Shown one piece after another: positions 31,269-60,576 of a DNA stretch of 64,000 nt; positions within the stretch are counted from its first letter, which is position 1, and every line of letters starts with the position of its first letter. The DNA is from a virus, in the IMG/VR virus record IMGVR_UViG_3300050821_014313, positions 1-64,000 of that record, one strand, 5' to 3'. The notes beneath the pieces were generated by a model. The model saw only the letters and a program-made list of their open reading frames with translations. It did no database searches and was not told the DNA's origin. The translations under genes and the position numbers were made by a program.

Positions 31269-31464
31269 CCGCTTCTCTCCTCTGCTTAATTATTGCTTCA
31301 ATCTGATCTGTTACGTCAAACTTTTCGCCCGTAACTTCGACTAGATACCTCTCTGGCTGGTCAGGAGACTGCTCTGTTGCCTTCCACGCGCGTGTCACGT
31401 AGTACCGCGGAGAACTAGTCAAGTTACTCGTGAGAATCAGTGGATGCTTGCGTTTGCGCGTCAT
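31204..31464 (-). CDS. Hypothetical protein downstream of DNA polymerase
   Basis: 86 aa, starting on an ATGA overlap with the polymerase stop. Basic ends and a beta-rich middle (YYVTRAWKATEQSPDQPERY, LVEVTGEKF) of unknown family. The C-terminal 21 residues are read from the same DNA as the MazG-like start in another frame. Confidence 0.6.
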   Translation of the reverse strand: MTRKRKHPLILTSNLTSSPRYYVTRAWKATEQSPDQPERYLVEVTGEKFDVTDQIEAIIKQRREADDAQRRLHVSQGRSGKSRGRK

Positions 31465-33512
31465 GCTTTTTGCTCCTTTGTCTGGTCCCGCCAGTTCGGC
31501 CCGTAGCTACCTTCGGTCGGAATCACGAACCCAGGCATCTCGGGGGTCTCGACCTCCATATCGCCTTTCAACCACCCCATAGCTTCGGCCGGCGGAATCT
31601 CATTCCTCGTATAGCCAATCAACTCATCGTGTACCTGTAGCACCGGTCGCTGCGGTCGACCTTTCTTAAACTTCCGCCAGTTATTAAGCAACGCGATCTT
31701 GCTTATGTGTGCGATCGGCTGAGAACCCCAGACAGCCAGACCAGTCTTTATCCTGTCCTCGTCAGTCCCGTAACTAATTAAGTAGTACCCGTGCGGAGGT
31801 CTTACGTATCCTTGCTCGATCTGCGCAGCGATCTTCTTTTGTAACTCACGTATCTTAGGGAACGTTCCATCAATATATCTACTAACAATCGCATTCGCCT
31901 TAGCCCTGTTGTCAAGGCTAGCTTTTCCAAACGCTCGACGCGCGAGGTTAGTTCCTGTAATCGTAACGATCTTTCCTCGGAACTTCCAGTCGGCGAATAC
32001 AATTCGAGCTCCTGCGTCGATCTCAGATCGAATTTTCTTGGACCGCAACTCATAAGGCTCCTTAAGCTGCAGACCCTCAAAGTAGTCCGCGGCGTGCGTA
32101 ACCGACTTGCTCGCGTCTCGCGCCGAGCCCAGCTTGATACTAAACTCGTCCGTTTCCTTCAATCCGATGTTTGTGACCATCCAGCCATGCAGATCTCCCT
32201 TTGGCTGCTCGTACCCTGAGAGATATAGAAAATTACGATTCTCTGCGTTGCTATAATCGGCTCGAACGATGTAAAAACCTTCTGGTGCTGCGATTGCTCG
32301 ACGAATCTTCTTACCGACAAATTCTCCACTGAAACCTCTGCATGCGCAACCAAGCACCAAGCATCGATCGGCTGCGTGCTCACCTTTGCTGTGCCCGCAT
32401 CCGCAAACCTTACGACTACGTCTCCGCTTGGCGACGTTTTGGAAGTTTGGGTCGGAACACATAAGTCGCGCACTGCTAGTATAGTAAGCGAGGCGAGGAT
32501 GGACGAAGCCAAAGCTATCCAGATAACCCTCGATGTAACCGGTTTTTTCGCTCCGGTACTGCTCTTTGAACCACCTGTCTGGGCCATTGCCAAGCTCCTT
32601 ATAGTCAAGCAAATCGACTAACTCATCTGGTGCGAATTCCTCTCCCCCAAGCTTCTCGATCATCGCACGAATAGTTTCTTCTTGGGCGTTCTCGAGCAAC
32701 AGCTGCCTATCGCCTGGACCAACCAGACGCTTGGCTCCTTTGTCGTTGAAGTACGCGAGCACTTGCTGCGTGCTCTTAGGATTAAACGGCAACTCGCTCC
32801 CGGCTTCTTCTTTCTCCGCGAGAAACTCTGCTCGCAGCTTCTCTACGTACGGCCGGTCAATAAACACTCCGTATTCCCTGATCTCGGCTAGCGCCAGAGC
32901 AAGTTCGCGATGCATCGGATAGAGTTTCTCCAGTCCGCGAAACGCCATTGTTCGCTTGAGCTGTGGCAACGCGACCACAGGCGCTGCAGCATCAAGCCCG
33001 TTATAACCGTAAGGATCGTGCTGAGGACAAGGTCCGCTACAGTACGGCTCGCGACAGTCTTTCCAATGAGCAAAGTCAGTATACAGACTAGCCATAGTCC
33101 AGAGATTATTAAACCCCCGACCTCTTTTCTCACCAGCGTCCTCCTCGAGCGCGGCTTTGCCTCCGCCCTTGCTCAAATGCATGTTCACCAGCCAGTGCCG
33201 TATTATAGAATCCTCGATTTGCTCCAGCGGGATCTTTATCCCGTCTTTCTCCAAGACTTGTAAGTCAGCTCCAACGAAATTGTGTCCGCACCAAACTGTT
33301 CTCGGATATCTTCGAATAATCTCGAGAAGACTCGCACGTCCTGCGGAGTACGGCACCGAAATATGAGTTGTGCCGTCACTGAGTCCAAGGATGGTTGGTT
33401 TTTGGTCGTTGTCAAATTCGAGGTCGAGACCGAGCGGAGATTTTCCATAAAGCTTCCTTATGTCGTCCGGATTACGAGAGACCTTAGGCCACTCGGGAAG
33501 AAACTTATACAC
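31461..33512 (-). CDS. DNA polymerase family A with inserted Cys/His cluster
   Basis: 683 aa replicative polymerase. 3'-5' exonuclease: GLDLEFDN (D30, E32), GHNFVGADL (N78, D83), YNGLDAA (Y170, D174). Polymerase: motif A VRADYSNAE (D419, E424), O-helix R-x3-K-x3-H-x3-Y at 465-477, motif C VLQVHDEL (H628, D629, E630). Between DPNFQN (354-359) and RRAI (404-407) sits an insert with C370, C372, H374, H379, C384, C389, C391, a probable zinc site. A second unusual stretch follows the O-helix (481-525). No 5'-nuclease domain. Exonuclease and polymerase residues look intact. Confidence 0.93.
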   Translation of the reverse strand: MYKFLPEWPKVSRNPDDIRKLYGKSPLGLDLEFDNDQKPTILGLSDGTTHISVPYSAGRASLLEIIRRYPRTVWCGHNFVGADLQVLEKDGIKIPLEQIEDSIIRHWLVNMHLSKGGGKAALEEDAGEKRGRGFNNLWTMASLYTDFAHWKDCREPYCSGPCPQHDPYGYNGLDAAAPVVALPQLKRTMAFRGLEKLYPMHRELALALAEIREYGVFIDRPYVEKLRAEFLAEKEEAGSELPFNPKSTQQVLAYFNDKGAKRLVGPGDRQLLLENAQEETIRAMIEKLGGEEFAPDELVDLLDYKELGNGPDRWFKEQYRSEKTGYIEGYLDSFGFVHPRLAYYTSSARLMCSDPNFQNVAKRRRSRKVCGCGHSKGEHAADRCLVLGCACRGFSGEFVGKKIRRAIAAPEGFYIVRADYSNAENRNFLYLSGYEQPKGDLHGWMVTNIGLKETDEFSIKLGSARDASKSVTHAADYFEGLQLKEPYELRSKKIRSEIDAGARIVFADWKFRGKIVTITGTNLARRAFGKASLDNRAKANAIVSRYIDGTFPKIRELQKKIAAQIEQGYVRPPHGYYLISYGTDEDRIKTGLAVWGSQPIAHISKIALLNNWRKFKKGRPQRPVLQVHDELIGYTRNEIPPAEAMGWLKGDMEVETPEMPGFVIPTEGSYGPNWRDQTKEQKA

Positions 33513-34588: not shown

Positions 34589-34758
34589 GCTCTTCCTCCA
34601 CAATACGGACAGTAGTTGGGCTCGTTGCCTTGAGCGTAAGCCGCTGTTCGTGTGTGCTCAGGATCGAATGGATCTACTCGCCCAATCCTTACCTGCGCCC
34701 CACACTCCGAGCACTTAAACTCATTGATAACTGCACCCTGAACATACGCTAGTGTCAT
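34585..34758 (-). CDS. 57-aa zinc-ribbon protein
   Basis: ATG 34758 overlaps the glycosylase stop (ATGA) and the gene ends ATGA into the HAD gene. CSECGAQVRIG and NYCPYCGG give two CxxC knuckles about 33 residues apart, a zinc ribbon. Possibly DNA- or protein-binding adaptor; function unknown. Too short for routine ORF calls but tightly coupled both sides. Confidence 0.72.
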   Translation of the reverse strand: MTLAYVQGAVINEFKCSECGAQVRIGRVDPFDPEHTRTAAYAQGNEPNYCPYCGGRA

Positions 34759-35765
34759 GGCTTATTCTTTTCCTCGAACCTATCCCAACACGGCGCGCAA
34801 CCGCATCTCGGCGCACGCTTCCCTAAGTACCGCTTGTAGGATTTGCACGCCTCCACCGCGAGTTCACTAGGCCGAGCGTGTCGTGCAGCACGTCTGACTC
34901 GGGTCTCGAGGCTGCTTGGGAAGAACTCGTCGTCGCTTTCTTCCTTCTTTTTCTTCCCTGCTTTAGCCTTCGCGATGAATCGTTCTTTGTACTTCTTGAC
35001 CCACTCCGGTCCCACGTTAACGTAGTGACCGCGCCACTTGGTGACGTTAGCGCCAAAACGGGCAAAGGCTTGGACGGCTTTCCCACCAAGCAAACCGATA
35101 ACCCTGCGCCCTTGCGTAGCAAAATCTCTGATCTTTTCCATGTCCTTGACTTGTAGTGGAAGCGGAGTAATTTCACGCAACAACCCTGCGGGGTGAAGTG
35201 AGAACACGAGGGTATCGGGCCGAAACTCGTCCAATCGATCGTATTGTCGGCAGCATAGCTCGGCGGACGTTTTGATTGCTCCAGTAGGATAAGCGGCTCC
35301 TTGCTTGCTTTTGGGCGGTAAGCATCGGATTGTGTTATCAAGAAATACTTCGCTTCGGCTGATCCCGCTTTTTGGCCACGCCTGATACTGCAACTGAGAC
35401 CCCGATGGGCCAACCACAGGCGCGCCTGATTCGATGAACTTGGGATCCATTTCTGGATAAGCTCTTCGTCGCTCATTACGTTCCTCATTTACCTCTTTCT
35501 CCGTTGCAAAGAAAGCTCGGTCTTTAACCGCTCGCAAAGCGAAGCTAGTCTCTTCCCGCCCGGGAGCTTCCAAGATAAACGCGTAGCGAGCGTTTCGTGG
35601 CGAGCCTGTTCCGAGCACAAATCCCTTAGATAACGACTCGAAAGTATGCTGGCCATCGGGGCAAGCCGATGCCTCTTTGTGATCTTCAAGCTTCTCCTTA
35701 CAATGCCGACAAGTCACCGCCAGCAAACAGCCAGAGGCATAACAGCTTTCTGGCTTGTCTTTCAC
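34755..35765 (-). CDS. Uracil-DNA glycosylase superfamily protein (Fe-S type)
   Basis: 336 aa. GTG 35765 (GTGA overlap) is preferred to 35822. The core has YAFILEAPGREE, GAPVVGPSGSQLQYQAW, SRSEVFLDNTIRCLPP and a late VFSLHPAGL, the order of family 4/5 UDGs. Cysteines at the N-terminus (CRHC) plus NTIRC and ELCC could ligate a 4Fe-4S cluster. A Lys-rich linker and CGCAPC tail are extra. Probable base-excision or dU-discriminating enzyme acting with the polymerase. Confidence 0.78.
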   Translation of the reverse strand: MKDKPESCYASGCLLAVTCRHCKEKLEDHKEASACPDGQHTFESLSKGFVLGTGSPRNARYAFILEAPGREETSFALRAVKDRAFFATEKEVNEERNERRRAYPEMDPKFIESGAPVVGPSGSQLQYQAWPKSGISRSEVFLDNTIRCLPPKSKQGAAYPTGAIKTSAELCCRQYDRLDEFRPDTLVFSLHPAGLLREITPLPLQVKDMEKIRDFATQGRRVIGLLGGKAVQAFARFGANVTKWRGHYVNVGPEWVKKYKERFIAKAKAGKKKKEESDDEFFPSSLETRVRRAARHARPSELAVEACKSYKRYLGKRAPRCGCAPCWDRFEEKNKP

Positions 35766-35998
35766 TCTGCGTATCCATCGGCTTGCGTCTGCGCGACCGT
35801 ACTCTCGTGCGTTTCCTGGCACTCGCTGCAGCCCACGCGCTTATGCTCCAAACAAGAGCTCAGACCGATAAACGTCGCGTCCAGCAACTCTCGAGTAGCG
35901 ATTGCGATCGTGCGATAAATCGTCGTATCGTCCGCGCCCGTTGTTGCTTTGAGCTCAGCATAGATGTTGTTGATGCTTTCTTCGGCGTTGAATTTCAT
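35762..35998 (-). CDS. Small helical protein with CxxC
   Basis: 78 aa, AGGAGAGCCGC before ATG. Helical N-terminal half (IYAELKATTGADDTTIYRTI) and a SSCLEHKRVGCSECQETH segment with C-x2-H-like and CxxC residues that may bind zinc. Overlaps the glycosylase start by GTGA. No family known. Confidence 0.65.
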   Translation of the reverse strand: MKFNAEESINNIYAELKATTGADDTTIYRTIAIATRELLDATFIGLSSCLEHKRVGCSECQETHESTVAQTQADGYAE

Positions 35999-36007
35999 GC
36001 GGCTCTC

Positions 36008-37492
36008 CTATTCTTCGATATAAATAAGCTCGTTCATCGCACGAGTTTTTGCGACGTACTTCAAGTTTCCTTCTTGATCCGGCACCCCGGGCTTCGACCA
36101 CTTCCCAATCAACCCGTACTTAAGAATGAAGACTCGGTTCCACTCCTTACCCTTAGCTTTATGAATAGTGCTGAGTACGATTTTGTTTGGATTCGCGTCG
36201 TCATCGAAAAGATTCAAGATTCGCGCAAGCAACGCGTCGACCGACTGCGATCGCATCTGACGAGTAAACACTCGAATAGTATCGACGCGATCTTGTAGAC
36301 TGTTGACCTTCCATGACTTGCCTTCGCGTAGCAACCGAGACCGCTCAGACTCAAGATGTGCTGCGAGCTTTGACTCGAGCTCAAGCACCGTCGCTGCGTG
36401 CATCTTCTTGACTAGTGAGATCAGACCCTTGCCGATGTCGCGTCCGAGCACTCTGCACGGAATGTCTTTGGCGATTAACTTGAACGCGTGCTCGACTAAC
36501 GGAGCGTTTAACCGGCAGAGAATAACGTCCTCTTTCGCGTAATCCTCAGGCTCGTAGCTGTAGCTGTGCTCGACTCGTCCGTCAGGCGCGCCGGCTCGTG
36601 GCTGCAACCACTCAACTTGCTCGTTCGCGTCCTCAACAATCAGCCGTGCGCACCGATAGCTCACGCTGAGCGGCAGCTCCTCGGCGGCAAACTCCTGCTT
36701 AAGCAACTCCATCGAGTCTGTGCCAGCTCCGCGGAAACCATAAATCGCTTGGTTAGGATCCCCAATCGCAATCAGCCGGCCGTCCTTAACCAACGATCGT
36801 CTGATGATCTCTCTCTGAATCTCGTTTACGTCCTGAGCCTCGTCGACAAACAAATACTCGTACCGTTTGAACGGAGCGTCCGCAACCACCGGCATGTATA
36901 GCTGATCGTTGAAATCGATCACTTGACCGCTCATTGCGATAGACTCGACGAGCACGCGCCTTGCGGTCGCTATCGCTCGGTGCCTAGCTACCTTCCCAAA
37001 ATCGAGATCGAACTCCTCGGCTAGGTCGAGCCAGTTGTAGTCGCTGTCCTCGACGAGACCTTTCAGGTGCGCGGTCTCAGCCGCCCTCGGCACGAGCCCA
37101 ACTCCTTTCGCGAGAGCTACGAGCTTCGTCACGTCCTCACGAAACTCGCTATTGTAGCTGTCGGGCTGCGCACGAACCAACGCGCTCACCTTAAACTTAT
37201 CGAGCTTGGCGTATTGTCCGTTATGCATGTACCACGCAGAGTTGCCCAGGCTGTTGAAGGTCTTCGCTTTGTCCTTCCCGAGCTTACCCTCGAGCACCAG
37301 CTGTATGTCCTTGTTGAACGCCAGGAACTTCGCGGAGCTGTGCTTCATCACGCGCTTGAACCCTACGACTCCGGTCGTAGTCTTCCCGGCTCCTGCTCCA
37401 GCCTTAACAATCAAGCTTCGGTCGTCGTTCTCAAGGAAGTCGAATATTGCTTCCTGCTCGGGCGAGAAAACTCTTTCGTCTACTGCGTTCAT
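36008..37492 (-). CDS. UvrD/Rep-type superfamily 1 helicase
   Basis: 494 aa; ATG 37492 forms an ATGA overlap with the preceding 58-aa gene. Motif I AGAGAGKT (31-38), Ia FLAFNKDIQ, II YLFVDEAQD, III AIGDPNQAIYGFRGA, IV SYRCAR, V STIHKAKGKEWNRVFIL, VI VAKTRAMNELIY. Shorter than UvrD (about 720 aa), with small 1B and 2B insertions. DNA-unwinding motor for replication or recombination. Conserved residues look intact. Confidence 0.93.
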   Translation of the reverse strand: MNAVDERVFSPEQEAIFDFLENDDRSLIVKAGAGAGKTTTGVVGFKRVMKHSSAKFLAFNKDIQLVLEGKLGKDKAKTFNSLGNSAWYMHNGQYAKLDKFKVSALVRAQPDSYNSEFREDVTKLVALAKGVGLVPRAAETAHLKGLVEDSDYNWLDLAEEFDLDFGKVARHRAIATARRVLVESIAMSGQVIDFNDQLYMPVVADAPFKRYEYLFVDEAQDVNEIQREIIRRSLVKDGRLIAIGDPNQAIYGFRGAGTDSMELLKQEFAAEELPLSVSYRCARLIVEDANEQVEWLQPRAGAPDGRVEHSYSYEPEDYAKEDVILCRLNAPLVEHAFKLIAKDIPCRVLGRDIGKGLISLVKKMHAATVLELESKLAAHLESERSRLLREGKSWKVNSLQDRVDTIRVFTRQMRSQSVDALLARILNLFDDDANPNKIVLSTIHKAKGKEWNRVFILKYGLIGKWSKPGVPDQEGNLKYVAKTRAMNELIYIEE

Positions 37493-37665
37493 CGTACCCT
37501 CGATCGAATAAGAAAAATCAGTGCGTCGGCTTGCGCCTGCGTAAGATTCACTCCGGCGAGCTGCCGCCATATTGAGCTTACCCAAGGAGAGATTTTCTCC
37601 CCTGTCTCCCTAAATACTCCACTCCGCCTAAGCATCTCGTCTAGCGAGTTTCTAGTCTTCTTCAT
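37489..37665 (-). CDS. 58-aa leader gene of the helicase operon
   Basis: Starts at ATG 37665 in an AACCAGATG context without a clear SD, ends ATGA into the helicase. The product is charged with a W-rich centre (ISPWVSSIWRQLAG) and a basic end. No family recognised. It is preceded by a long structured leader and a hairpin ending in TTTT, so its translation may be controlled by RNA folding. Confidence 0.62.
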   Translation of the reverse strand: MKKTRNSLDEMLRRSGVFRETGEKISPWVSSIWRQLAGVNLTQAQADALIFLIRSRVR

Positions 37666-37964: not shown

Positions 37965-38570
37965 TTACTGCTCGAACAACTTGATGTACCCGCCCTTTTT
38001 GAAGGCCTTAGGAGCTGCCGCGTCTTCCCGCTTCATAATCCCCTTAACCTCCAACCGCTTCGCGAACCGTGGCTCGGCTTTCTTGTTCACGTTCCGATAG
38101 AACGCGATCTCCAGGCCGGTCAGCAGCAGTGCGTAGTTATTCACTACTTCCTCGATCGTCGTGGGCTTCTTAGTGAGCCCTTCGACGGTCCGGGGAGTGC
38201 GACCAAGATCCCTCGCGATTCCTCGGAGCTGTTCGAGAAACGCATCGCCGTCGGCGTTCGCAATGCCGATGCGGTACGACATTTGTGCCGACTCAGGCAG
38301 AGTCGAAGCATCAACATCGACGTTCTCGTAGTACCCCCGTGGCAGAATCATCTTGTACTCGAATTCGCCAGTCGGGACGTTCTCGCTCCGGAGCTTGATC
38401 ACGAACTGCGCCGGCCAGTCTTCGTTCTCGGTCGGGTTCAAATACACGGCCTCAATCGTCCCAAAGTGCACATCCGGCACTGCGGGCGGCGTCGGTAGAT
38501 CCGACGTAGTGAAAAAATCTGCGTCCGGATCCTGCGCTCCTGTTCCAACCTCAACTTCGACTTCACTCAT
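37965..38570 (-). CDS. Abundant-looking early protein, possible ssDNA-binding role
   Basis: 201 aa; very strong SD AAGGAGGAAGCACA. Acidic flexible N-terminus (1-30), a beta-rich core (HFGTIEAVYLN, QFVIKLRSENV, FEYKMILPRGYY) and a basic Lys-rich C-terminus ending in YIKLFEQ. Placement between a Sak4-like ATPase and replication genes, the strong ribosome site and its own terminator fit an SSB-like or recombination accessory protein, but no family is certain. Confidence 0.62.
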   Translation of the reverse strand: MSEVEVEVGTGAQDPDADFFTTSDLPTPPAVPDVHFGTIEAVYLNPTENEDWPAQFVIKLRSENVPTGEFEYKMILPRGYYENVDVDASTLPESAQMSYRIGIANADGDAFLEQLRGIARDLGRTPRTVEGLTKKPTTIEEVVNNYALLLTGLEIAFYRNVNKKAEPRFAKRLEVKGIMKREDAAAPKAFKKGGYIKLFEQ

Positions 38571-38787: not shown

Positions 38788-39051
38788 CTAAGGTCGATAG
38801 TTCGTTCGTGCGTATTCTGCAAGAGGTCTGCCGGCTTTGCCTCGCTGCCAAGGCTGCTGCGGCGTGCCGTCCTTACGCTTACGTCTGTTGCGATTCGCGA
38901 TTCTCCGCTTTTCCCCGCAGTCCGTACAGACTCTCTTAAACGGCGAGTCGCCTCGGTCGCGTGCGCACCAAATGCACTTGCCTGCCCGCCAGACCCGGAT
39001 CTGCCAGATAGTCTGCCGGGAATACTTACGCTTTTGTTTCTTCTCGCTCAC
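38788..39051 (-). CDS. Basic zinc-finger protein
   Basis: 87 aa, GTG start overlapping the ATPase stop (GTGA). CIWCARDRGDSPFKRVCTDC gives C-x2-C-x13-C-x2-C flanked by Lys/Arg-rich helices, a zinc-binding, probably nucleic-acid-binding, module. Similar CxxC...CxxC basic proteins occur in HNH and recombination contexts but the HNH residues are absent. Confidence 0.7.
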   Translation of the reverse strand: MSEKKQKRKYSRQTIWQIRVWRAGKCIWCARDRGDSPFKRVCTDCGEKRRIANRNRRKRKDGTPQQPWQRGKAGRPLAEYARTNYRP

Positions 39052-40112
39052 GGTTGTTTAGGCAGACTGCTCTTCGCCGCCTTGATCCTCTCCCAAACCG
39101 CCCTGAGCTCCATCGCTTCCTCGAGCTTGACCACCTTCTTATCAACCGGCAGAAGCTCGAGAGCTAGTGGCAGCTTACGCTTGGCAAAGATCTCACGAAT
39201 GAACGTCTCGGGCTTACCTTTCTGATTCAGCTTTGAGTACTGCAAGCTGCTCCGCGACGTGATCATCTTCCACTTCCGCGGGTCGAGATAAAACACGTAC
39301 TCCATCTCGGCGGTGAGCAAGTTGCTGATGCCGCTGCTTAGCGCAGGAACTATCGTCTCGCGGTTCTCGGCCCCGTACGCAGTGACTTTACTCAGTCCAA
39401 TAAATATCGTATGCATCGGCTTGCGCTTGAGCGAGTTAAGAATCTCGCGAAACGCGACATTGCTGTTGCCGTAGATCTTGCGGCCGTCGCGGAGCTCCTT
39501 GCCTTCGTCGTCCGTCCGGTTGTCGTCGACAATCAACTCCGCGCCTTCCGTTGTGTCGTCGATGATCAGCGTACGCTCGGCGCTCTTCTCCCAGGCCAGC
39601 AGATTCGCTCGCTCGGTCTCGTTCAGTCCTGGCGCATCGTAAACCCACTTCGCCGCCGCCTCGGGATTCTGCAACGCCCACAGCAGTCCATCCGCACTGT
39701 CAACTTGCACAAACGGGTAACCTTCGTCGCGCACCGGCATCAGCTGTTCTTTACCACGCGTAAGCACGAAGAAGGTATTCTTCGGTCCACTGAACGCCGA
39801 CGCAGTAGTAGTCTTCCTTGTGTCCGTCTCTCCGTACAGCAACAAATGCATGAACCCGGACTCGATCTCCCGGGAGCTGCCTCTTTTGACTCCCGCTGGC
39901 GGCGCAACTCTACTGCCTACGCTCGCGTTGACCGTAGCAGCTACTGTTGGCTTCGGCGCTTGCAACGGCAGCTGTTTAGGCTGAACTACGACGGCAGACT
40001 TTACTCCGACCGTCGCAGCGGGCGAGACAGCGCCAGCTAACGGCGTACCCGCCGTCGTCATCTCTGTCTTCGCTTCTCCGACTACTGGACCCGAATCGGT
40101 CAAGCTATTCAT
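39048..40112 (-). CDS. RecA-like ATPase, Sak4/AAA_24-type
   Basis: 354 aa. The first 85 residues are Ala/Pro/Val-rich and disordered. Walker A is LLYGETDTRKTT (G94-K100-T101), lacking the usual glycine before Lys; Walker B RTLIIDD (D185, D186). The layout matches phage nucleotide-binding proteins used in single-strand annealing recombination. Its own promoter (TTGCGC-N18-TATAAT) and AGGAGA precede it. The neighbouring nuclease and zinc-finger genes fit a recombination module. Confidence 0.75.
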   Translation of the reverse strand: MNSLTDSGPVVGEAKTEMTTAGTPLAGAVSPAATVGVKSAVVVQPKQLPLQAPKPTVAATVNASVGSRVAPPAGVKRGSSREIESGFMHLLLYGETDTRKTTTASAFSGPKNTFFVLTRGKEQLMPVRDEGYPFVQVDSADGLLWALQNPEAAAKWVYDAPGLNETERANLLAWEKSAERTLIIDDTTEGAELIVDDNRTDDEGKELRDGRKIYGNSNVAFREILNSLKRKPMHTIFIGLSKVTAYGAENRETIVPALSSGISNLLTAEMEYVFYLDPRKWKMITSRSSLQYSKLNQKGKPETFIREIFAKRKLPLALELLPVDKKVVKLEEAMELRAVWERIKAAKSSLPKQP

Positions 40113-40161: not shown

Positions 40162-40452
40162 CTTTAGCACCGCGTTGACTAGGGCGGTCTGAGAGTACAA
40201 ATCGATTGCGGCTTTCATTGCTGTGTCTAGGCCTTCGGTTTGGTCGGCGTGCTCGGCCGCGATTCTCCATCGCACGTACTTTCTTCCTACTGCCGGTACA
40301 ACAACCGTCGCTGCAGCTACCGGCACGCTCATCGCGATGTGCAGCGGCGTGCGCCAGACTGCCCTTTTCCAGTCCCGTTGAAACGCAGGACACGGAATAG
40401 TCTGCGCCGCCGCGGCCGCCGTCAGTACTAACCAAACCGCGAGCTGTTTCAC
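40150..40452 (-). CDS. Small exported protein
   Basis: 100 aa; GTG 40452 overlaps the previous stop. N-terminus MKQLAVWLVLTAAAAAQT is a Sec signal peptide, followed by one Cys and a region with another weakly hydrophobic stretch (HIAMSVPVAAATVVVPAVG). Could be a spanin-like or periplasmic accessory protein. Its end overlaps the ATPase promoter. Confidence 0.62.
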   Translation of the reverse strand: MKQLAVWLVLTAAAAAQTIPCPAFQRDWKRAVWRTPLHIAMSVPVAAATVVVPAVGRKYVRWRIAAEHADQTEGLDTAMKAAIDLYSQTALVNAVLKLRD

Positions 40453-40745
40453 CGCAGACCCTCAGCAAGCAGTGCTTCGCTCCCGCCGGCACGCTCTAAC
40501 GCTCGTACTGCTATTGCTGCTATCTTTACGATCTGTTTTAGACTCGGCCGGTTGTCTCCCGCGACATTCCAATCGACCATCGCTTTGTCGACGTAGATCT
40601 GGAGCAGTACAAGATGGCTCGTTACGTCTTTGTCGCGATCCGCGCGAGTTCGGCCGCTCGATAATTCCTCGTTTGGGTTGTACGTGCGATCCTGATACGC
40701 ACGCTCGATATTTACAATGCCTATCGCTTGTTCTCTCGTCATCAT
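40449..40745 (-). CDS. Small all-helical protein
   Basis: 98 aa, start ATG 40745 on an ATGA overlap, AGGAGAAGAC upstream. ERAYQDRTYN, LLQIYVDKAMVDW and IVKIAAIAVRALERAG resemble a recurrent phage helical family whose members look like shortened MazG-type proteins; the EExxE motif is not present, so catalysis is unlikely or different. Confidence 0.62.
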   Translation of the reverse strand: MMTREQAIGIVNIERAYQDRTYNPNEELSSGRTRADRDKDVTSHLVLLQIYVDKAMVDWNVAGDNRPSLKQIVKIAAIAVRALERAGGSEALLAEGLR

Positions 40746-41725
40746 TTTGTCTTCTCCTGTTGCTCTTCCTTGATCATCCGGTAGAACTCGCTATAACCAG
40801 CATGAGCTACTGTGCCGACGTGCATTCCTGCGACCGAGTTAGACTCTTCGTTGTCTTTCTCAGACATAGATCCGGAGACGATTCTGTGCAGTTCTAAACA
40901 CTGACTCGCCATGTCGTAGCTGCTCGCGGAGAGCACGACTAGATTAGGATTGTCGAACCGATCTGGATCGATATGCGGGACCGCAAGGACCGTCGCTGGA
41001 TCACTTTCGTCGAACAGCAACTGCTTGTCCTCGCCCTCGAGCACCGTTGGCGGCTCATGCTTCGAGCAAAACTTATCGAGCATGCTGCATGTTCGGTTGA
41101 ACGGAAAGCATTGCTTCCCCGGCAACTGAAAAGGCACTATCCCGGCTTTTCTCGCGCACCTTATTTGCTCAGCTTTGGCAAGGAATCCGTTCCTAATACT
41201 TTGGAGCGCGTTGCTGTCGAAGCTGTAGACTCCGGTGTCTTCGCTTGGCCAGAACCTAACGGGGTTGCTTTTGACGGCGGCTCGGACACGAACACGAGAA
41301 TTCGCGGTTGGCTCGTTCGCAAAACTGAAATGCTCACCACTCCGGTCGTAGAAATCAGCTCCCGCAATTGCTGCAGCATACAATCCCACTTGGGATCCAG
41401 TGGAAATCTCTCGTAACCAGACTTCTTCGTTCCACCAACTACTATCCCTTCCGCGGGAATCTTTTCTCGGTTCTTTGACGTTTTTCCACTCATTCCCAAA
41501 AACTCCCTTCGCGTCGCGCATGATTACATCCTGCACGCCGATCGCAAGCGTGTTCTGGTCAAGCTCAAGCACAAACCCACACTCGACTGCCACAATCTCG
41601 TACTGACTGTCTTCGTCGTAGAACTCCTTCGCCCATTCGTCGACTAAGTTTGCCCCGGTCTCAAGCGCCAGCGGCGGCAGACCCGTCGCCATAATCGCTG
41701 CGTTGATTCTGTCAGGATCGATCAT
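40742..41725 (-). CDS. RecB/Cas4-like nuclease with permuted motif order
   Basis: 327 aa. PD-(D/E)XK core is near the N-terminus: E48, GVQD (D66), EWK (E79-x-K81) and Q112-x3-Y116. C206, C213 and C220 follow. The segment that begins ordinary RecB/Cas4 nucleases, S-x-S...C...G-x2-H, is instead at the C-terminus (LSASSYDMASQC 265-276, GTVAH 304-308). The Fe-S ligands would then be C276 plus C206/C213/C220. Likely end-resection exonuclease partner of the Sak4-like ATPase. Confidence 0.75.
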   Translation of the reverse strand: MIDPDRINAAIMATGLPPLALETGANLVDEWAKEFYDEDSQYEIVAVECGFVLELDQNTLAIGVQDVIMRDAKGVFGNEWKNVKEPRKDSRGRDSSWWNEEVWLREISTGSQVGLYAAAIAGADFYDRSGEHFSFANEPTANSRVRVRAAVKSNPVRFWPSEDTGVYSFDSNALQSIRNGFLAKAEQIRCARKAGIVPFQLPGKQCFPFNRTCSMLDKFCSKHEPPTVLEGEDKQLLFDESDPATVLAVPHIDPDRFDNPNLVVLSASSYDMASQCLELHRIVSGSMSEKDNEESNSVAGMHVGTVAHAGYSEFYRMIKEEQQEKTK

Positions 41726-44306: not shown

Positions 44307-44510
44307 TTACTTAGTACACGTAACCTCTCCACGACCCTTCTTAGTCTCCTCACACATGTAGTACTTTCCTGGCGGTCGACTGCTCGGAAAAATACAACTG
44401 TGTTTCCAAACTTTCGGGTCGGGAGATTTCACGCACCGGCACGACGGAGACATTGTTACTCCGTCGTGCCGAACAAACACAAGCATCGCGAGCGCTAACG
44501 CGATCTTCAT
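44307..44510 (-). CDS. Small Cys-rich, possibly exported protein
   Basis: 67 aa; ATG 44510 overlaps the metalloprotease stop (ATGA). N-terminus MKIALALAMLVFV is a short signal-like stretch. Five cysteines follow (SCRC, HSC, MCE, TCT). Coupled translation with the protease suggests a secreted partner or inhibitor. No family known. Confidence 0.6.
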   Translation of the reverse strand: MKIALALAMLVFVRHDGVTMSPSCRCVKSPDPKVWKHSCIFPSSRPPGKYYMCEETKKGRGEVTCTK

Positions 44511-46312
44511 GGCAGGTAAAACTTTCCCCACTTAGCCGCGTCGCACGACGTCGGTCCTTGTGGTTGAGTTCCCGGGCCAATCTCCGCACCAAACCCACCA
44601 TCAAGCAGTCCTGCTAAGTTGCTGCTTGGCTGTGGACCCATCACGCTCAACGCAACCCCGCCGTGACTAGCTGGACACCCCTGACCCAACCCAAACATTG
44701 TTTCGAGCTGCATCGGACAATCCTCGAACCCCTCGAAATGCCCGTTCTCATGCGCAGCCAATCCCTTGTAATTCGTCGCAGGGGTAAGCGTCTTTCGCAT
44801 ATACGTATCCACGTGATAGATACTTCCGTAGATCCACGGGAAGTCTCGGTTGAAAAACATCACCGAGTGCGTTCCCGTGCATCCAGCTGTCGGCTCGCAT
44901 CCAGTCACGAATACATACGGTTGTTGTGGCCGTACTGGCGGACCAATCGTACTTACGCATCCGTAGGCTTTTCCGTCAACTGCCTCCCACGACTGAAAAC
45001 CCGCACAGATGTTTTGCTCTGCAACCGATCCGTTCGCCCAATAACCCGAGTCAATATACACCGTGACTATCCCTGGCTCCCAATACTTCTGATTGAACGG
45101 CGGATAGTACGGGCACGGGCCGGTTGGATCCAACATTGAAACCACGGTTGCAATCGTCCCGGCGGCTGCGCAGGTAACCTGAGCTGCTGTGCTGTGTGTA
45201 CCGCACTTAGTGCTTGGTGCTCCTGGCGCAAACTGCACATCACACGCCGACATGAAATCCTGTACCAACCCCGTATCGAGCGTGGCCGGGAGGTAGCTTT
45301 GTTGGGAGTTTTTGTGTTCGGTTGGACAAGAATCCACATCGAACGTTGCAACCGCCAGCGCTTGCAAGTACGTTTGGTCGGGCGCACACGGCGGTGGCAA
45401 GGTCGATCCTGCAAACGTCGCTTGTGAGTTCACAAACGGTTCCATGAAGTTAAAATGAAACGCGTTGCCGCTTGCTGACTGCACCGCAAACAACTCAGCC
45501 TTGCTCACCGCGAGCGTAGTCGCAGTGTCCTGCACCTGCACCCAACAAGTGGTGCACATTGTTGCGTCGCTAGTTGATCCTGCCCAATAACTCACCGCAT
45601 GCGCGTTGCTGACAATCGCGACCATGGTGTCGGTTGCGACGATCTCTTGAGCTGCTCCGCCCGGGCTGTTGCATCCTGCCGGCACGAATCCAGCCGAGAA
45701 CGCACAGTACTCCGGAGTGAACCCACCGGTCACTGCGTTCGCCAGCAACCAAACTCCGAACCGGCTAACCACTGCCAGCTGTCCTGTGTTGATCCCTTGA
45801 TTCGCCAGCAAGTACAACCCTGTGTCGGTAAACAACGTCGACCCAGAGTAAGCGCACAGCAGATGATAATCTCCGTTGTGGATCCCGCAGATAGACCCGT
45901 CCAACTGACTCGCCGCGATGCTACGAAAAGTCGTCGTTGTTCCGAACGGATTCGTCCAGCTAGTCCCATCGTACATCGAGATCACTCCCGACGCGCCCAA
46001 CACATAAACCTGCGTGAAACTCACCACTGCAACTTCCGCTGCTCCGCTCGACAACTCCACCCAGGTGTTGGTCTCCCAATGCCAAAGATTAGCCGAGGTA
46101 TCGATTGCCCACGCATCGCCGTCGCCGCCGTAAGCATGCCGCTTAAAGTTCGACCCAATGCCAGTACGAGGAATCGCGTTCAAACACCCATGCGTCTTGC
46201 AATACTGATGCTGCGCTTGATAGTTGAAAGTGGTTACAGCCGAATACGTGTCTGCGCCAAACATCGGCAGAGACAGCAGACAGAAAACGATCAGTTTACA
46301 CCAACTCTTCAT
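44507..46312 (-). CDS. Secreted zinc metalloprotease with propeller-like domain
   Basis: 601 aa; ATG 46312 after GGAGAAGAAGCG is preferred to 46405. Signal peptide MKSWCKLIVFCLLSLPMFGA. Residues 40-330 contain tectonin-like repeats (GGDGDAWAIDTSANLWHWE, YVLGASGVISMYDGTSW) consistent with a beta-propeller carbohydrate/protein binder. The peptidase part has HENGH at 521-525 (HExxH, catalytic E522). Ten or more cysteines occur late. Secreted peptidases are rare in phages; it may act on host surface proteins or competing cells. It is a probable moron. Confidence 0.75.
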   Translation of the reverse strand: MKSWCKLIVFCLLSLPMFGADTYSAVTTFNYQAQHQYCKTHGCLNAIPRTGIGSNFKRHAYGGDGDAWAIDTSANLWHWETNTWVELSSGAAEVAVVSFTQVYVLGASGVISMYDGTSWTNPFGTTTTFRSIAASQLDGSICGIHNGDYHLLCAYSGSTLFTDTGLYLLANQGINTGQLAVVSRFGVWLLANAVTGGFTPEYCAFSAGFVPAGCNSPGGAAQEIVATDTMVAIVSNAHAVSYWAGSTSDATMCTTCWVQVQDTATTLAVSKAELFAVQSASGNAFHFNFMEPFVNSQATFAGSTLPPPCAPDQTYLQALAVATFDVDSCPTEHKNSQQSYLPATLDTGLVQDFMSACDVQFAPGAPSTKCGTHSTAAQVTCAAAGTIATVVSMLDPTGPCPYYPPFNQKYWEPGIVTVYIDSGYWANGSVAEQNICAGFQSWEAVDGKAYGCVSTIGPPVRPQQPYVFVTGCEPTAGCTGTHSVMFFNRDFPWIYGSIYHVDTYMRKTLTPATNYKGLAAHENGHFEGFEDCPMQLETMFGLGQGCPASHGGVALSVMGPQPSSNLAGLLDGGFGAEIGPGTQPQGPTSCDAAKWGKFYLP

Positions 46313-46388
46313 TCGCTTCTTCTCCAGAGGATAGATTTTCCTGATACCGATTGGATGCAGCGGCAGCGAGCAAGGATGCAGTGAATTC

Positions 46389-46397
46389 TGATATAAT
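46389..46397 (+). promoter_or_regulatory. Extended -10 promoter, leaderless 46407 gene
   Basis: TGATATAAT: TATAAT at 46392-46397 preceded by TGA, 9 nt before ATG 46407. No SD lies between, so the start would be at or within about 2 nt of the 5' end. The same DNA reads AATTATATC on the other strand and may carry the divergent promoter of the protease. Confidence 0.65.
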
Positions 46398-46406
46398 TGC
46401 TGCACG

Positions 46407-59657: not shown

Positions 59658-59830
59658 GCTGTCCTCGCTTGAATTAGTTTGTTCACTTCGGCTTTGCGCT
59701 TCGCGATAACGCACTCTGCGTGCTCAGTGAATAGCTGTGTGTAATCGCTTGGCTTTCCGCCGAACTTTTGCGCGCGCTCGCTCGCACTAGGCGCGAGAGT
59801 AATCAGTTGTTTGCAAATTGTGCAATTCAT
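59654..59830 (-). CDS. 58-aa zinc-type protein
   Basis: ATG 59830 overlaps the GP88-like stop (ATGA), preceded by GGAAAGGCC. MNCTICKQL then TEHAECVIAK gives CxxC and H-x2-C. It ends in ARTA, encoded by the same GAGGACAGCATGA run that follows the next gene. Below routine length cut-offs. Confidence 0.66.
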   Translation of the reverse strand: MNCTICKQLITLAPSASERAQKFGGKPSDYTQLFTEHAECVIAKRKAEVNKLIQARTA

Positions 59831-60576
59831 GCGGCCTTTCCAATCTGTATGAGTTTTTGATGCGGTTGTACAAACCCGGATTCATCTTTTTTCGCCCTGC
59901 CCTTCGCGCGCAACCCGACAACCACTCCCTTGCGGTCCGCAAACCTCAGATCGCTTTCGTCTCCATCGATAACGCTGTAGCCATTCCACTGCTTAGGCAA
60001 TTCATGCCCGCGCTTCACAGCAAACACCACTGCAACGTTAATCTTGTGCGCGAGTGCGTCTAACGCGTCGCTTAGGTTTTCCTCGCTTAAGCTAAACGTT
60101 AGATCGTAGTTGCTCCTTGTGCGCTTCCACGGCTCAGGAATCTTTGTGTAGTCGTAAAACTGTACCTCTGGAAACCGCTTCGCTAGCTCTAAAGCGAGCT
60201 TAGGTTGGTCGGACGTCCCATTGAGTCGTACGCATGGGGTTAGGTCAAGCTTTTTGGCTTTGCGCACGAGAGCCGCTATTTCGCGCGCGAGTGTATCGCA
60301 AAACGATTTGTAGTCACTGACGTACGCGCGCGTGCGAGCGTTCCTCGCAAGATTAATCTTGGGGAAAATTCCTGCTCTGCCCGCAGTGTATAGACACGCT
60401 TTTTTGCATCCGGTTGTTGCGAACGGGCAGAGATTGACTTCGCTGCCGTTTGAGTGCCGTAATCCGCTTTCGTTCGCTGGCGACATGTAGCAGATTCCCG
60501 TGAGGAATCCTTTGCTTTCGCCTTTGACTGTCTTAGCATCGTTCGAGACGGACAGTAGCTTTGGTTGTCTGGTCAT
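59827..60576 (-). CDS. GP88-like conserved phage protein
   Basis: 249 aa. NLCPFATTGCKKACLYTAGR (C50, C57, C61) followed by ARNARTRAYVSDYKSFC, and later RLNGTSDQPKLALELAKRFP and YDYTKIPEPWKR, matches the phage GP88 family (conserved Cys cluster, possible radical or metal chemistry; function unknown). SD CAAGGAGCAAA. First gene of a transcription unit beginning at R3. Confidence 0.85.
   Translation of the reverse strand: MTRQPKLLSVSNDAKTVKGESKGFLTGICYMSPANESGLRHSNGSEVNLCPFATTGCKKACLYTAGRAGIFPKINLARNARTRAYVSDYKSFCDTLAREIAALVRKAKKLDLTPCVRLNGTSDQPKLALELAKRFPEVQFYDYTKIPEPWKRTRSNYDLTFSLSEENLSDALDALAHKINVAVVFAVKRGHELPKQWNGYSVIDGDESDLRFADRKGVVVGLRAKGRAKKDESGFVQPHQKLIQIGKAA

Follow-up and report, generated by a model that had tools for sequence, protein, structure and literature searches.

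The stretch of DNA analysed here (the window, 64,000 bases) comes from a metagenomic virus contig, the IMG/VR record IMGVR_UViG_3300050821_014313 of 68,676 bases, whose matches to terminase, portal, and major head proteins point to a tailed phage. On its minus strand, at 40742..41725, lies a gene of 327 amino acids with an ATG start, which we describe as a permuted RecB/Cas4-type (PDDEXK_1) nuclease. The reading frame runs from 41725 down to 40742, and the plus strand of the same interval is interrupted by stops. A Shine-Dalgarno-like, purine-rich stretch (GAGGAAGAAG) is found upstream of the start, the GC periodicity is of the coding type, and the stop codon shares a four-base ATGA overlap with the start of the next gene, a 98-amino-acid ORF with no confident family (40449..40745, minus). 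The nuclease itself matched nothing in Pfam or NCBIfam, and no other PF12705 match was found in the record.

Reading from the N- to the C-terminus, the protein presents D66, E79-x-K81, Q112-x3-Y116, the cysteines C206, C213, and C220, and then, at 266–308, a block made of S-x-S, C276, and G-x3-H. All of these parts lie on the minus strand and their motif residues are invariant in this protein and its three full-length homologues (see below). The catalytic D66 sits in a G-V-Q-D motif (41528..41530) that aligns with the canonical G-x-x-D; it is followed by the catalytic E79-W80-K81 (41483..41491), in which K81 aligns with the lysine of the canonical D/E-x-K, and by Q112-x3-Y116 (41378..41392), equivalent to RecB motif III, whose Q and Y are also kept in the aligned canonical fragments. 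The same fragments conserve the cysteine triad C206, C213, and C220 (41066..41110), putative Fe-S ligands. The join that follows is a linker of approximately 45 residues (40931..41065), partly conserved among the four permuted proteins (FDxxDPA...(H)IDPD), and it leads to the displaced N-terminal block S266-A-S268, C276 (codon 40898-40900), and G304-x3-H308 (40802..40930). The sequence-only reading had placed D66, E79, K81, Q112, Y116, and the four cysteines exactly where we find them, and had given the last motif as G-x2-H, which has to be corrected to G-x3-H (GTVAH).

Relatives of the nuclease

Direct searches with the window nuclease or with its Sak4 gave no matches, nor did a search with an alignment of synthetic variants of the window protein, made to loosen the search patterns; a profile built from one tight canonical family missed the protein in its native and rotated forms alike. 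The relatives were reached through the capsid protein, and their records were then searched with the window nuclease. Three full-length homologues were obtained from other metagenome contigs, G061 and G059 (both 55% identical) and G060 (44%), each in one uninterrupted frame and with the same motif order. A motif pattern scan over viral and genome contigs returned only these same three relatives, the remaining weak matches being due to chance or antisense, and at the more than 100 loci reached by way of the helicase the nuclease was canonical or none was detected. Within the sensitivity of the tools, no further permuted members were found in IMG/VR, GTDB genomes, cultured phages, or plasmids. 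The literature gave no permuted RecB/Cas4 nuclease, although permutations elsewhere in the PD-(D/E)XK superfamily may be on record. The permuted proteins form one clade with a support of 100/100, located on a long branch, and the tree (unrooted, with long branches) shows one change of order, consistent with a single origin of the permutation. They appear to be an uncommon natural rearrangement within a very common enzyme family.

Canonical nucleases are nonetheless present in the same capsid lineage. The capsid protein of the podophage ctLwi270 is 43% identical to that of the window, and its nuclease (UOF78517.1) has the canonical order. This protein and those of two further phage contigs (G065 and G068) share the capsid lineage and the cysteine pattern of the permuted set, but they are canonical in order, 288–300 amino acids long, and of very low sequence identity to the permuted proteins.

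Order of the two halves

Since the window protein is too divergent to match Pfam, either native or rotated, the argument leans on its homologues. The three of them score 46.9, 39.6, and 38.7 bits against PF12705 (PDDEXK_1) in their native form, all above the curated Pfam cut-off of 22 bits. Two (L125 and L126) show two PF12705 stretches in reversed order, the N-terminal residues matching profile positions 89–225 and the C-terminal residues positions 2–62, while in the third (L127) only the N-terminal part was matched. When the halves were searched separately, as the sequence-only reading had proposed, they matched complementary parts of the profile, the N-terminal parts positions 91–226 and the C-terminal parts positions 2–56, the weakest case being L127 (E 0.08). 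Both halves are homologous to the PF12705 nucleases, and rotation turns the homologues into a single continuous match from 2 to 226, with higher scores of 51.7, 46.6, and 44.4 bits.

A similar picture was obtained with hhalign against five canonical phage nucleases, where the rotated family aligned in a single piece (74.7 over 240 columns) and the native one scored 60.6 across 170 columns, its C-terminal block aligning separately to template positions 11–65. Against only the three canonical proteins of the closest lineage there was no usable score, rotated or native. We also rotated the four proteins in steps of 6 residues and scored them against a profile built from 17 canonical sequences. 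The optimal cut fell at 234–246 in all four, with a plateau at about 240–264, that is, between C220 and S266. The gain was small in L127 (29.1 vs. 26.9) and amounted to 7–15 bits in the other three, and both native and rotated scores exceeded those of 200 composition shuffles of each protein. A two-block scan separated the permuted proteins from some 30 canonical ones by their order; its profiles contain the tested proteins, so it classifies order and is no proof of homology. The collinear domain order of PDDEXK_1, with the S-x-S/H block first, was found in none of the four, and as the order is exchanged in all of them we class them as a permuted variant and not as ordinary PDDEXK_1 members.

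Predicted structure

Folding by AlphaFold2 from the single sequence was of no use (pLDDT 32). With homologues as input, namely the four permuted proteins together with fragments of canonical cores, it reached a mean pLDDT of 75.6 and a pTM of 0.77; the C-terminal block was covered by the four permuted sequences only, and finer splitting of the canonical rows degraded the folding alignment. Confidence is good for the beta core and for the C-terminal helix 298–326, which carries H308 (helix pLDDT about 86–96), while the cysteine segments 199–236 and 270–284 and the linker have low confidence. The model has a core with the predicted fold of the RecB nuclease clan. Its Foldseek matches in the PDB are MGME1, EXO5, AdnAB, RecB, AddAB, RecE, and Cas4, mostly over part of the chain, as would be expected for a permutant, and it also matches phage PD-(D/E)XK models, again mostly over part of the chain. 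The best of the PDB matches, MGME1 (E 4e-3, probability 1.00), shares the DNA exonuclease core of the RecB clan, but is canonical in order and aligns with the model over some 160–197 columns.

A different pattern was found for two uncultured-phage proteins of BFVD, A0A6J5MFE0 and A0A6J5NSY1, whose alignments span almost the entire permuted chain and have the highest TM-scores (0.48 and 0.51, over 353 and 393 columns, most other BFVD matches spanning about 140–250). Judging from these model alignments, they may be further permuted nucleases. As for whether the C-terminal block belongs to the nuclease core, the confident helix and the match of the block to the N-terminal part of PF12705 speak for it, while the segment around C276 is of low confidence. 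Taken together, homologues, profile tests, and predicted structure bear out the permuted motif order, the RecB/Cas4 kinship, and the rearranged Fe-S cysteines that had first been noticed from the sequence.

Recombination operon

The nuclease belongs to a minus-strand block of replication and recombination genes. It had initially been placed beside a Sak4-like gene, and both do lie in the same operon, with two short ORFs in between. This gene (39048..40112, minus) encodes a Sak4-like AAA_24 ssDNA-annealing ATPase (phrog_124, 8e-9; PF13479, 1e-7). It is followed by an 87-amino-acid basic protein with a zinc-ribbon-like C-x2-C...C-x2-C pattern and no family match (38788-39051, minus) and by a conserved 201-amino-acid protein, also lacking a family match and present in the three relatives (37965..38570, minus). 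For the Sak4 of HK620, annealase activity with stimulation by its SSB has been described (PMC5928155), and the 201-amino-acid protein is accordingly a candidate for an SSB, though on position only. Further along the same strand are a UvrD-like SF1 helicase (36008..37585; phrog_1967, 6e-88; PF00580), a uracil-DNA-glycosylase-like protein conserved in the relatives (34755..35822; PF03167, just below the cut-off), and a family A DNA polymerase (31461..33512; phrog_17, PF00476), and the block additionally encodes a metallophosphoesterase-type repair exonuclease. PolA, the UDG-like protein, the 201-amino-acid protein, Sak4, and the nuclease are found together in all three relatives, and the helicase in two of them within the stretch compared. 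An exonuclease-type gene and an annealase gene share one operon in all four phages.

Some other features of these genomes deserve mention. The Sak4-like ATPases of the window and of L129, L130, and L131 have an altered P-loop, GET(D/S)xRKTTT (AETSAWKTTT in L131), in which R or W replaces the second glycine of Walker A. Elsewhere on the minus strand of the window, a 632-amino-acid protein (44507-46405) contains the HExxH-type motif HENGH and, from its translation only, is possibly a phage metallopeptidase, and a GP88 family protein is encoded at 59827-60576 (PF17338, 6e-42).

The pairing of a nuclease with Sak4 is also seen with canonical enzymes. In G065 and G068 a Sak4-type ATPase comes directly after the canonical nuclease, and several helicase-related phages pair the two as well. 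The RecB/Cas4-like phage exonucleases with a PF12705 domain (PHROG 69 and PHROG 1218) are likewise located near Sak4; both halves of the homologues match them, and they have in common with the permuted proteins the S-x-S..C..G-x3-H, G-x-x-D, D/E-x-K, and Q-x3-Y motifs and the three C-terminal cysteines, while in the permuted proteins the halves are exchanged, a new linker is present, and a new N-terminus precedes the pre-core helix. On the basis of the conserved synteny and of these canonical neighbors, a recombination exonuclease acting with Sak4 is plausible. The most likely function would be that of an Fe-S exonuclease resecting DNA ends for the neighboring annealase; such a metal-dependent enzyme would yield the single-stranded DNA used by Sak4 in phage replication and recombination, much like Red-alpha and Red-beta.

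Origin of the permuted chain

We consider it very likely that the window gene encodes a true circular permutant of a RecB/Cas4-type (PDDEXK_1) Fe-S nuclease and that the permutation arose once. Among the alternatives, a permuted protein that is non-nucleolytic or works in another way, e.g., a structural partner of Sak4 that binds DNA ends, or an endonuclease used in packaging or in the breakdown of host DNA, seems rather unlikely. PDDEXK proteins are functionally diverse, and the function proposed here comes from motifs and gene neighborhood; against such a role stand the invariance of all catalytic residues, the location in a replication and recombination operon, and the canonical counterparts, which adjoin Sak4 and match PHROG exonuclease families. 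It is also improbable that a nuclease lacking its N-terminus (inactive or minimal) has been fused to the opening segment of another, with no single domain rebuilt. An intermediate of this kind would occur on the way to a permutation by tandem duplication, and the join is a long linker modelled with low confidence; however, each half is present once only and both together cover the family once, the proteins form a single clade with one origin, and it is difficult to see why four diverged proteins would keep all active-site and cysteine positions in both halves unless these served a common function. Although the record is a metagenomic contig, an assembly or frameshift artefact can be practically dismissed, as the same order was seen in uninterrupted frames in four separately assembled contigs, the other three only 44–55% identical, and canonical homologues, which could have exposed a misread gene, are only distant while the nearest relatives are all permuted.

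The circular permutant that we favor would have arisen by tandem duplication of a canonical gene followed by loss of the outer parts. Its ancestor would have had the order S-x-S, C, G-x3-H, helix, and then the G-x-x-D core. Relative to that order, the chain is opened in the loop that follows the helix bearing the metal-ligand histidine, where the new ends now lie, and the linker connects the former C-terminus, past the third cysteine, with the former N-terminus. In Cas4 and AddB a single cluster is bound by one cysteine on the N-terminal side together with three on the C-terminal side, so that the canonical termini lie side by side, and joining such neighboring ends is geometrically natural. 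The permuted protein shares with Cas4, AddB, and EXO5 one cysteine associated with the S-x-S/H block and three more after the core, all taken to be cluster ligands. In those enzymes, however, the lone cysteine is N-terminal and the cluster ties the chain ends together, whereas here all four fall within 206–276. From their positions, C206, C213, C220, and C276 are putative ligands of a 4Fe-4S cluster, and the permutation would have made local (C206-C276) what had been a staple between the two ends of the chain. The permuted chain would presumably fold to the same active site and bind the cluster.

Significance of the rearrangement

Recombination, CRISPR adaptation, and mitochondrial DNA maintenance all depend on nucleases of the RecB/Cas4 type, and the order of their domains is presumed in profile searches. 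Proteins such as this one, without any Pfam or NCBIfam match, can be missed. A further possibility, which we put forward tentatively, is that a working natural permutant of a RecB/Cas4 Fe-S nuclease, joined at its cluster-stapled ends, replaced the canonical enzyme at its own locus beside Sak4 in a single phage lineage, and that A0A6J5MFE0 and A0A6J5NSY1 are perhaps members of the same group, which would make it a wider, unrecognised family. A permutant that keeps all functional residues is a clean natural test of which segments of the fold have to be contiguous. If the cluster served mainly to hold the chain ends together, a permutant should need it less, and yet the four cysteines have been kept.
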